Shown here in pieces: positions 34,901 through 40,900 of a DNA stretch of 64,000 bases (its first letter is position 1; each line of letters starts with the position of its first letter). The stretch is from Anas platyrhynchos (lineage: Eukaryota > Chordata > Aves > Anseriformes > Anatidae). Position numbers and translations under genes: made by a program. The stretch is from positions 6,287,501 to 6,351,500 of the forward strand of contig NC_092613.1 in the NCBI RefSeq assembly GCF_047663525.1. The letters are read 5' to 3'. Below the pieces are notes generated by a model. The model had not been told where the DNA came from. It searched no databases and saw only the letters and a list, made by a program, of their open reading frames with translations.

Positions 34901-37900
34901 TACTACTATGAAGTAGTATGTTCTCCATCATTTACCTAAAAATACTCCATATCCTATCATGTGTTTTTAATGAGGATGCAGCGTACAATCAAGGGAATTT
35001 AGAGGGCATCTTGCTAGATGGTATTTTGTTTCCAAAGTAGGGGTTAAACAGGTTAGAAGAAGCTCAGAGAAAGATGGGAAATGTGCCTTCCAGTTAAAGC
35101 AGGTTCAGGCTGGATATGAGGAAAAGGTTTGTCACCTGAGGGTGGTCAGGCACTGGAACAGGCTCCCCAGGGACGTGGTCATGGCACCAAGCCTGACAGA
35201 GTTCATGAAGACATGTGATGTATTTATTTTTTTAATGTGGTCCTCTGGGGACCTAGAAGTCCCAGATACCACTTACGTCCCTCTAAATTGGATTTATCAT
35301 GCTGGGTTTGCCCTGATCTCCCATTTCTTCTTCTTTTTTTTTTTTTTCTTTTTTTTTTTGTTTGTTAACAAACATATTTCAGCTAAAAATAATTGTTGTC
35401 TTAACTAAGAAATGTAAAGTTATGTGTAAGTGTAGCAATGGAAAAAAAAGGTTTTTAACTGAATTTAAATTCATTTAAATGTGTTCTGTTTCTGTGTCTT
35501 AGAAAGAAACGATAACTTGCTAATGAATTTTCTTTGTTGATGTAGTACATGACATTGACTGTTGTTTTTTCTCTCTTTTTCTGTAATTTTTTTCTTCAAT
35601 CAAACAATGCATCTTCAATACAGATCCCAAAGGAAAAAAGAGACAGGATGAAGAAGGTGAAAAAGAGAAATCTGGCTGGCGGAAAGAAACATTGACAGAT
35701 AAAGATGGGGCTAAGAAACCTAAACGCAGAGAACATCTTAGCGATAAAGATGATCTGATGGATGCTGGCATAGAAAAAGATGACTGGTACAGAAATGGCC
35801 AAGAAGGCAGTCAAGGCTACTCTGATGTTGATGAAGGACGTATATTTCTGGGAAAAGAGGGGCTACGCAAAACATACAGAGATGGAACAATGGGGCCCGG
35901 GCAGTTTTCTGAAGCAGAGAGAGATGGAGAATCAATGACAGATGATGATAATGACATGAGACTAAAAATTTTAGGAGGGAAAAAAGGTTTAAGGCCTGTA
36001 CACAGCCAGGATTCTATGACAGGTAGAGCAAATACTGGTGATAGAACAGGAGGAGCAGATGAATTGTATTCTGTGGATGGCAGAGATGAGGGCATGTTGG
36101 ATGCAGTTGATGTTGACATGGATGATGCAGAAGGTATGGATTCTTGGCATGGCAAAAATGATAATAGTTCTAGAGCTGGCTTTGGTGGTATCAAGAAATT
36201 AGGTGCTACTGATGGAAGTTCTGTGTTAGATGGACTTGATCCTGATTCAACCAGAGTGGGAGACAAGCATTCCCTGTATGGTAAGGATGATAAGCTAGGT
36301 AGGACTAGATCTGGTAAGAATGCCGCCGGTACTGAGACTGCAGGAGGAATGAGGTCCCCCTATAGCAAGGATGGTTTGCCTACTGTGGCTGGTGTGAGTG
36401 GAGCTGGTATAAAAAGAGAAGGAGAAACAGGGGCTCCGTATGGAATGGATGGCTTAGCAGCTGATGCTGGTGGTCATCTAGGTCAGGCAGGAAGACCTGG
36501 CTTGCTGTATGGCCCAGGTGGTCTCCCAGCTGGAGATGGGGCTAGAACTGGTGCAGGTGGAAGTTCTGCAGGAGAAATGGGGGTACTCTATGGTCCAGAT
36601 GGTCTACCAGTTGGGGCAGGTGTTGACGACGCTACTGCAGGTAAAATGGGAGGGTTCTATGGTAAACATGGACAATCAGGTGAACCTGGGGCTGGAGCTG
36701 GAAATTGGGTTAGAGCTGATGGAGCCGGAAGACAAATGGGATCACCCTATCAAAAGGACGGTCTCCCAGATGGAGCTGGGGCTGGTGGTGCTGGTGTAGG
36801 TGGTTTTGGAGGTGTTGGCTCTCCCTATGGAAAAGATGGCCTTCCAATGGGAATGGGAACTGGGGCTGGTATTGGTGGTGCAGGTGTAGATGGCTTTGGT
36901 GGTGTGGGGTCTCCATATGGAAAGGATGGTCTCCCAGCTGGAGCTGGGGCTGGTATTGGTGGTGCTGGTGCAGGTGGTTTGGGAGGTGCTGGGTCTCCCT
37001 ATGGAAAGGATGGTCTCCCAGCTGGGGCTGGTGTTGGTGGTGCTGGTGCAGGAGGAATTGGCTCTCCTTATGGTAAAGATGGCCTTCCAGTGGGAATGGG
37101 ACCTGGTGCCAGTGGTACAGGTGTGGATGGCTTTGGTGGTGTGGGGTCTCCCTACGGAAAGGATGGTCTCCCAGCTGGGCTTGGTATTGGTGGTGCAGGA
37201 GGAATTGGCTCTCCTTATGGAAAAGATGGCCTTCCAGTGGGAATGGGAACTGGGGCTGGTGTTGGTGGGGCTGGTGTAGGTGGTCTTGGTGGTGCTGGAT
37301 ATCCCTATGGAAAGGATGGTCTCCCGGCTGGGGCTGGTGTTGGTGGTTCAGGTTTAGCTGGTGCAGGGGGAGTTGGTTCACCCTATGGAAAAGATGGTCT
37401 TCCAGCTGGGGCTGGTGTTGGTGGTGCTGGGGTTGGTGTTGGTGGTGCTGGTGCAGGTGGTTTGGGAGGTGTTGGGTCTCCCTACGGAAAGGATGGTCTC
37501 CCAGCTGGAGCTGGGGCTGGTATTGGTGGTGCTGGCGTAGGTGGTTTTGGAGGTGCTGGATCTCCCTATGGAAAGGATGGCCTTCCAGTGGGAATGGGAC
37601 CTGGGGCTGGTGGTGCTAGTGCAGGTGGTGATGGTTCTCCCTATGGTAAGGATGGTCTCCCAGCTGGGGCTGGTGTTGGTGGGGTTGGTGTAGGTGGTTT
37701 GGGAGGTGTTGGGTCTCCCTATGGAAAGGATGGTCTTCCAGCTGGGGCTGGTGTTGGTGGGGCTGGTGTTGGTGGTGCAGGAGGAATTGGCTCTCCTTAT
37801 GGAAAAGATGGCCTTCCAGTGGGAATGGGAACTGGGGCTGGTGTTGGTGGGGCTGGTGTAGGTGGTCTGGGAGGTGTTGGGTCTCCCTATGGAAAGGATG

Positions 37901-40900
37901 GTCTCCCAGCTGGAGTTGGTGGTGCTGGTGCAGGTGGTGCAGCAGGTATAGGTGCTCCCTATGGAAAGGATGGTCTTCCAGCTGGGGCTGGTTTTGGTGG
38001 TGCTGGTGCAGGTGGTTTGGGAGGTGCTGGGTCTCCCTATGGAAAGGATGGTCTCCCAGCTGGAGTGGGTGGAGCTGGTGCAGGGGGTGCAGCAGGTCTT
38101 GGTTCTCCCTATGGTAAGGATGGTATCCCAGCTGGGACTGGTGTTGGTGGGGCTGGTGCAGGTGGTTTGGGAGGTGTTGGGTCTCCCTATGGAAAGGATG
38201 GTCTCCCAGCTGGAGTGGGTGGTGCTGGTGCAGGTGGTTTGGGAGGTGTTGGATCTCCCTATGGAAAGGATGGTCTCCCAGCTGGGGCTGGTGTTGGTGG
38301 GGCTGGTGTAGGTGGTTTGGGAGGTGTTGGATCTCCCTATGGAAAGGATGGTCTCCCAGCTGGGGCTGGTGTTGGTGGTGCTGGGGTTGGTGTTGGTGGT
38401 GCTGGTGCAGGTGGTTTGGGAGGTGTTGGGTCTCCCTACGGAAAGGATGGTCTCCCAGCTGGAGCTGGGGCTGGTATTGGTGGTGCTGGTGCAGGTGGTA
38501 TGGGAGGTCTTGGATCTCCCTACGGAAAGGATGGTCTCCCAGCTGGGGTTGGTGTTGGTGGCGCTGGTGGTGCTGGTGCAGGTGGTTTGGGAGGTGTTGG
38601 GTCTCCCTATGGAAAGGATGGTCTCCCAGCTGGAGCTGGGGCTGGTATTGGTGGTGCTGGTGCAGCTGGTTTGGGTGGTGTTGGTTCTCCCTATGGTAAG
38701 GATGGTCTTCCAGCTGGAGCTGGGGCTGGTGGTGCTGGTGCAGGTGGTCTGGGAGGTGTTGGGTCTCCCTATGGAAAGGATGGTCTCCCAGCTGGGGCTG
38801 GTGTTGGTGGTGCTGGTGTGGGTGGTTTCGGAGGTGTTGGGTCTCCCTATGGAAAGGATGGTCTCCCAGCTGGGGCTGGTATTGGTGGTGCTGGTGTGGG
38901 TGGTTTGGGAGGTGTTGGGTCTCCCTATGGAAAGGATGGTCTCCCAGCTGGGGTTGGTGTTGGTGGTGCTGGGGTTGGTGTTGGTGGTGCTGGTGCTGGT
39001 GCAGGTGGTTTGGGAGGTGTTGGGTCTCCCTACGGAAAGGATGGTCTCCCAGCTGGAGCTGGGGCTGGTATTGGTGGTGATGGTGCAGGTGGTATGGGAG
39101 GTCTTGGATCTCCCTATGGAAAGGATGGTCTCCCAGCTGGGGCTGGTGTTGGTGGTGCTGGTTTAGCTGGTGCAGGGGGAGTTGGTTCTCCTTATGGTAA
39201 GGATGGTCTCCCAGCTGGGGTTGGGGCTGGTGTTGGCGGTGCTGGTGTAGGTGGTTTGGGAGGTGCTGGGTCTCCATATGGAAAAGATGGCCTTCCAGTG
39301 GGAATGGGAGCTGGGGCTGGTGTTGGTGGTGCTGGTGCCGGTGGTTTTGGTGGTGTAGGGTCTCCCTATGGAAAGGATGGTCTCCCAGCTGGGGCTGGTG
39401 GTAGTATAACCAGTGCAAGGGGGGCTGGATCTTCCTATGGAAAAGATGGTCTATCAAGTGGTGCTGCAGCAGGAGTAGCTCGTTCTCCTTTTGGAGGTGA
39501 AGAAGGAATGGGTTCACACCAGGGTCGGGGTGCTGGGCTGAGCAGTGTTCAAGGATATGGAGGTGGAGCAGGAGGAGCTGGCTTATCCTCAGAAGGAAGG
39601 GGTTTTGGTGGCTCTGCCATACTAGGTGCTGGGTCTGCATATGGGAAGGATGGGGGGTCAGCTGGAGGCAGGGCTGGAGGGGGTGGTGTTGGCAGGTTGG
39701 GAGGTGATGGGAAGGAGTTACATTCAGCCTGGGGTACGGAAGGAATGGGAGGTGCTGGAATGGGTGGTGAATATGGGCTTGATTCACGTCCCGGCAAATC
39801 TGCACGAGGTGAAGCTGGAAAGGGAACTGCCGGTGATTTCAGAGGGCCAGGACACAAAGGCTCACCCCACGACAAAGAATCAGGTCAAAGGGATGGTAGG
39901 GGTGAGGACAGAGGTTTAGGACAGTTAGGCTCCCGTTATGGCAAAGATTCTGCTGTTGGAGGGGCAGGGGGCAAATCTCATGACAGGTTGGGTGATGGGA
40001 GGAAGCCAGGTGTTTTCGGTCAAGGTTCACCAGGTTATGATCAGACATCAAACCTTTATGGTGGACCCTCCTCGATAAACCAGAGAAAGCAGCTACCCAG
40101 CCTTGATGTTAAAACAAATGACTTCTTGAAGAATACGGAAAGTACAGAGAAAAGAAGACAGTATCGCCTAGATGATCTGAGAGGTATGTGTTTAACTGAT
40201 TACTTCTGTATTGCTGATCTGTGCCTTTCGATACTAACAAGAGCAAGTGCTGGATTCTACTACTAGAGTGCCCAAAGGAGGGCTACAAGATGGTGTATAA
40301 GATGTGTATATTACTCTCTGTCAGTGTAGGACAGAATTAGCATCTTTCCAACATTTTCTTTTCTGGACACTTAGCACCACGCTGTCATGTCAACAAGCAG
40401 TTAATTGATGTCCGGGTCCAAAAAGGGGAACCAGCTGAGCTGTCTTGTGCTGTCAATAAAGAAGATTTGACAGGAACCTGGTTTAAAGATGGATTAAAGG
40501 TCAGTGTCCTGTAGCTGCTTTTTTCTTTGGCTATCTGTGCTCTGCTCTCTGGCTCTATGTCTTATTGAGTAGCACGTTGAGGTGTCTTTCCCTCTGCTGG
40601 TCTTACTATGGTCTCAGCATGGCCCTAGAAGACTTCTGCAGGAGCTTGTTTAAGCTAAACTTCCTGTCAGAAACTGACAGATTTCTTTGCATTCCTGCTG
40701 CAAGTTATGTCCATTCTTGCTGACAGCAGGAGGCTTTGTGTTTTCCATTCTTTTCCACGGGTGAAGATGACATGGGTCTTTTACTTGAAATGGAATCCCT
40801 TTTCTTTACTTTGGTGCATGAGAAAAATATGCAAAAAAAAAAAAATCTTCAAATGATCTTCAGGCAGGTATAACACCGAAAGTACTCTTTCAAATTAGTG

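Follow-up and report, generated by a model that had tools for sequence, protein, structure and literature searches.

An in-frame, constrained SPYGKDGLP repeat array in the giant exon of a well-supported IGFN1 gene of Anas platyrhynchos

The DNA analyzed here is a stretch of 64,000 nucleotides from Anas platyrhynchos, referred to as the window, and coordinates throughout are positions in it. The gene on its plus strand is well supported as IGFN1 by the sequence features set out below, and its single giant exon carries a tandem array of glycine-rich units that share the motif SPYGKDGLP. This array is real, in frame and constrained. The exon and the parts of the array within it are the following:

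35624..40183, plus strand: giant exon, 4560 nt = 1520 codons, phase 1-1, predicted disordered segment (placed by open frame and splice sites)
36355..36819, plus strand: diverged upstream unit copies (profile matches and protein search)
36820..39429, plus strand: core array, 32 complete in-frame units
39430..40080, plus strand: 33rd motif SSYGKDGLS and decayed remnants (seen by eye)

A preliminary description of this DNA had given the array 32 to 33 units of 21-35 residues, averaging about 27, over roughly 870 residues, and recounting bore this out. There are 33 motif starts, belonging to 32 complete units and a 33rd motif that begins at 39430, and the complete units measure 21-35 residues (mean 27.19, median 26) and add up to 870 residues. 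Counted in the open frame, exact SPYGKDGLP occurs 29 times and PYGKDGLP 31 times, and all five residues of the YGKDG core are identical in 33 of 33 copies. The further claim of one tyrosine and one lysine per unit stands for this core, but taken over whole units it is slightly too strict, as the 32 units contain 33 Tyr, 32 Lys and one Arg; the extra tyrosine comes from a unit that starts YPYGKDGLP.

The array is not a product of chance, as indicated by Tandem Repeats Finder scores of up to 1147 and by comparison of profile matches with reversed and shuffled controls. A profile built from the 32 complete units matched 38 stretches of the giant exon at an independent E-value (i-E) below 0.01, with some units split in two, and gave one match in the reversed exon, one match in each of three of 20 shuffles and none in the other 17. 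The array also reaches upstream beyond 36820, to 36355: the profile found clear units at 36742-36819 (i-E 4.8e-12), 36589-36654 (3.1e-6) and 36355-36411 (4.3e-9), and 36244-36654 was matched in a protein search as well (50% identity, E 1.6e-12). A further candidate at 36436 (i-E 0.006) is weak in light of the reversed and shuffled controls. On the 3' side of 39430, remnants of YGKD can be made out, but none was detected with the unit profile at i-E<0.05.

Mean identity between units is 0.86, and similarity drops weakly with distance along the array (r = -0.18; 11 of 2000 shuffles were as low). The exact internal repeats reach at least 120 bp but less than 150 bp. The array thus combines a homogenised core and, upstream of it, decayed copies, the pattern that unequal exchange would give. 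In a protein search with a 196-residue piece of the array against the 1.26-Gb genome (42 contigs), no second genomic copy was found: six of the eight matches lie in the giant exon and two at C2:887559-888866, the first of which falls in an unrelated minisatellite and was rejected as a second array. That minisatellite, at about 0.888 Mb of C2 (L017 1116-3375), has a 26-residue unit, KEYGVNQKSGSPIGSVWFPPGCRGHP, and both of its strands are open for up to 311 codons.

We compared the copies codon by codon using the ratio of non-synonymous to synonymous differences (pN/pS), which among copies of one array is computed from non-independent pairs and confounded by homogenisation, so that the values are signs of constraint and not rates. 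In the coding frame the nine-codon motif has a pN/pS of 0.05, and a block of 17 codons has 0.23 (bootstrap 0.18-0.30). Read in the two other plus frames, this block scores 0.83 and 1.08; in the three minus frames it scores 2.91, 0.36 and 1.25. The low value in this frame relative to the other plus frames supports a coding array. Within the motif, 10 variant types are synonymous and five non-synonymous, a synonymous excess with P = 0.0017, or 0.004 when transitions are weighted fourfold; this test counts types, not pairs.

Minus-strand frames of 301, 201, 594 and 740 residues also stay open across the array (36710-39838). Minus-strand genes over the array were considered and rejected, the open frames being judged effects of composition; two of the three minus frames have pN/pS above 1 (2.91 and 1.25).

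The assignment of the gene to IGFN1, of the giant exon to a single exon and of the array to coding sequence is supported by the arrangement of the domains, by the phase of the splice sites and by constraint at the level of codons. The earlier placement of the array in one IGFN1 exon is supported on the same grounds. Ahead of the giant exon the domain order is Ig-THB-Ig-Ig (THB, tri-helix bundle), and after it Ig-Ig-Fn3-Fn3-Fn3-Ig-Fn3-Ig:

28672..28811, plus strand: first half of Ig1 (I-set 25.4 bits, above cut-off; splice sites)
29306..29405, plus strand: second half of Ig1 (I-set 25.8 bits; splice sites)
32062..32228, plus strand: THB exon (PF18362, E 1.7e-17; one of four THB matches in the genome)
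32823..32936, plus strand: inferred first half of Ig2 (no Pfam match alone; the joined domain is weakly similar to titin and MyBP-C Ig domains)
33539..33710, plus strand: second half of Ig2 (I-set 18.3 bits, below the cut-off of 23.7)
34356..34628, plus strand: Ig3, 273 nt, phase 1-1 (I-set 34.6 bits; acceptor, and donor GT after 34628)
40375..40499, plus strand: first half of Ig4 (I-set 19.6 bits, below the cut-off of 23.7; second half not located)
41967..42263, plus strand: Ig5 (I-set 46.4 bits)
42883..43182, plus strand: Fn3-1 (fn3 47.2 bits)
43559..44465, plus strand: Fn3-2 in two exons, 43559-43732 and from 44332, 3' end approximate (fn3 25.9 and 25.2 bits)
44953..45255, plus strand: Fn3-3 (fn3 53.7 bits)
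46000..47200, plus strand: Ig6 in two exons, 46000-46088 without a Pfam match and 47005-47200 (I-set 47.1 bits)
47702..47998, plus strand: Fn3-4, 3' end approximate (fn3 36.5 bits)
48460..48788, plus strand: Ig7, ends approximate (I-set 72.8 bits)

Altogether 16 gene segments were compared with Pfam, of which 12 scored above the cut-off, two scored below it and two, the first halves of Ig2 and Ig6, had no match. Four further open frames were scanned without a Pfam match. According to published work (PMC5493368), IGFN1 has three domains on the N-terminal side and eight on the C-terminal side of a large disordered segment that is alternatively spliced, and the gene in the window has the same plan. 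Its three N-terminal globular domains are Ig1, Ig2 and Ig3, with Ig2 recognized through the sub-threshold match of its second half; four Ig and four Fn3 domains make up the C-terminal eight; and between the two blocks lies the 1520-codon exon, of which 189 array residues were modelled as described below. Troponin exons are found on the same contig about 63-87 kb past the end of the window, a neighbourhood that fits the vertebrate gene order. A 2010 paper reportedly placed IGFN1 at the Z-band. A review table (PMC7216277) gives it, on two-hybrid evidence, as a Z-line partner of filamin C, and chicken IGFN1 is among the differentially expressed genes of breast muscle and uterus in reports whose relevant passages are silent on the giant exon (PMC11997327, PMC4625885).

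The giant exon lies in a plus-strand open frame of 1559 codons (35587-40266), which matched none of the Pfam families; Rfam and a tRNA scan likewise returned no matches. Its splice sites are inferred from the sequence. The putative acceptor at 35624 has a weak tract with a pyrimidine fraction of only 0.5, and the putative donor at 40184 scores 4.6. The upstream exon leaves one codon base and the downstream exon opens at codon position 2, so that the giant exon would be symmetric (phase 1-1) and its skipping would therefore keep the reading frame. No internal acceptor with a pyrimidine fraction of at least 0.75 was found within it. Just 5' of the exon, an open frame at 34974-35405 encodes a peptide that resembles one from this genome's titin region and is probably a dispersed repeat.

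In composition the array fits a soft unfolded chain, with 45% Gly, 8% Pro, 8% charged residues and a net charge of -0.003 per residue. An AlphaFold2 model of 189 array residues had a mean predicted local distance difference test score of 48.2, with no helix of four and no strand of three residues, although this supports disorder weakly, since the run used a single sequence and such runs are often of low confidence anyway. With an assumed 0.36 nm per residue and a persistence length of 0.5 nm, the array would have a calculated contour of about 313 nm if straight, a rest length of about 18 nm and a stiffness of about 0.04 pN/nm. Collagen was considered, because GKDGLP resembles its triplets, and rejected: the longest Gly-X-Y run is five triplets, and 500 shuffles average 7.9.

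We favour the explanation that the array forms the core of the giant disordered exon in IGFN1, a scaffold protein of muscle, and works as a soft unfolded tether, and we put its probability at about one half. In its favour count the domain layout, the symmetric exon phase, the signs of coding constraint, the composition and low predicted structure, the slightly greater likeness of nearby units, and the comparisons with titin and with self-assembled elastomers given below. The tether would connect the domains on either side, Ig-THB-Ig-Ig and the Ig/Fn3 block, and give the protein more reach and compliance. Tyr, Lys and Asp of the spaced YGKD motifs would make weak contacts that serve as reversible stickers. 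Unequal exchange would have enlarged and homogenised the array, and selection would have kept the SPYGKDGLP motif tighter than the Gly/Ala/Val spacer. Skipping of the giant exon would remove the array without a frameshift, much as in a mouse isoform from the literature whose disordered segment is subject to alternative splicing.

Several observations weigh against this explanation. In mouse C2C12 cells that isoform, IGFN1_v1, partly rescued an exon-13 mutant (PMC5493368), and the segment would therefore be dispensable for that role. Units that sit side by side in the array (spacing 1, with an identity of 0.857) are not its most similar pairs, the length of the units is as free to vary as that of a passive filler, and donor-like sites inside the giant exon score up to 5.4, above the 4.6 of the chosen donor. 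One minus-strand frame has a low pN/pS (0.36), which we take to reflect the coding frame on the plus strand. The limits stated above for pN/pS among copies and for the single-sequence model belong here as well.

A rival explanation is a neutral coding minisatellite, G-rich and prone to exchange, in an exon that need only stay open and unfolded and in which spacer length would matter and sequence hardly. We regard this as possible, if rather unlikely. The coding strand is indeed G-rich (1133 G vs 403 C) and has 317 starts of G2-type quadruplexes, against a mean of 217 and a maximum of 263 in 100 shuffles, with none on the other strand; the long exact repeats, the decayed upstream copies and the free variation in length agree with such an origin. 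Yet no canonical G3 quadruplex occurs in the array, and the protein sequence of YGKDG is invariant in every copy despite the 10 synonymous variant types of the motif. For human IGFN1, a quadruplex within intron 15 has been reported to affect splicing (PMC6193652); any link between it and the G2 quadruplexes of the array is speculation.

The YGKDGLP motif could instead be a multivalent ligand, for example of a Z-disc partner, or a driver of phase separation, with elasticity secondary. The motif pN/pS of about one-fifth that of the whole block and the recurrence of lysine every 21-35 residues point in this direction, but the aromatic motif is sparse, at about one per 27 residues, and the one PDB hit for the 196-residue piece, at E = 1.8, is not a clear relative, and we consider a sticker-and-spacer role of this kind quite improbable. 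Far less probable still is that the array is an assembly artefact, or that the open frame is neither spliced in nor translated. The weak acceptor at 35624 would suit an unspliced frame, but the synonymous bias is frame-specific and the splice phases agree on both sides; as to an artefact, the genome was assembled in 42 contigs and the longest exact internal repeat is shorter than 150 bp.

The tether that we prefer can be carried further, to IGFN1 as a miniature titin-like elastic link with an N2A-like block, a skippable spring and an A-band-like Ig/Fn3 part, in which the spring would have been rebuilt in a lineage-specific manner from a fast-evolving Gly-rich minisatellite. This extension we hold to be distinctly doubtful. 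If it were true, vertebrate muscle would possess, inside its cells, an elastomer that had converged on elastin and resilin, with its length open to change by repeat number and exon skipping. Even the plain tether, if expressed, would be a natural elastomer-like segment inside muscle cells, tunable by copy number and by one frame-neutral exon. It would then offer a defined peptide for tests of elasticity or condensation, and a case for studying how new mechanical segments come from coding minisatellites.

Comparison with titin bears on the tether as well as on this extension. In this genome the titin region (C7 24310093-24313041, L025), compared here as an N2A-PEVK-A-band stretch, has the order Ig-THB-Ig-Ig-Ig followed by PEVK-type exons, and its opening block resembles the one ahead of the IGFN1 giant exon. 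MyBP-C, at loci on C1 and C5 that we presume from sequence to be its genes, has an Ig-THB-Ig-Ig block too, so the block is not specific to titin. A titin PEVK composition was rejected for the array, which has no Glu in 870 residues and 32 Lys. The THB domain of IGFN1 is nearer that of MyBP-C, whereas Ig1 is nearer titin, also when compared with the MyBP-C Ig domain that precedes the THB; across the whole genome, the titin Ig used in this comparison is outscored by two further Ig domains from the titin region. When joined domains were compared with the genome, 58 matches were obtained, 11 in this gene and 47 in the C7 titin region, among which the absence of MyBP-C carries no meaning, as 43 of 394 candidates were scored. 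These sequence comparisons single out neither titin nor MyBP-C as the sole source of the N-terminal block.

Elastin, resilin and silks are extracellular and cross-linked, while the array is part of an intracellular protein. Composition and low predicted structure are in keeping with the resemblance to them that the preliminary description proposed: like elastin-like and resilin-like elastomers, the array is rich in Gly, contains Pro, is neutral and has little predicted structure. It differs in hydropathy, with an intermediate grand average of 0.22 where an elastin-like unit has 1.20 and a resilin unit has -1.21, and in its Pro content, which at 8% is lower than their 20% and 13%. Its 2P+G of 0.60 falls right on an elastomer cut-off of about 0.6. 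In self-assembled elastomers, high Pro plus Gly is tied to disorder, hydration and elasticity (PMC5703643). An elastomer reading of the array is plausible.

With regard to published IGFN1, the earlier statement that giant repeat-rich exons are known for this gene holds for a large spliced disordered segment, but the words "repeat" and "glycine" do not occur in the text of PMC5493368. The SPYGKDGLP array was not seen in the open-licence literature searched, in agreement with the earlier view that the unit had not been described. What was already known is a disordered, spliced IGFN1 segment and repeats of a familiar kind; what is new is this particular unit with the constraint on its motif.

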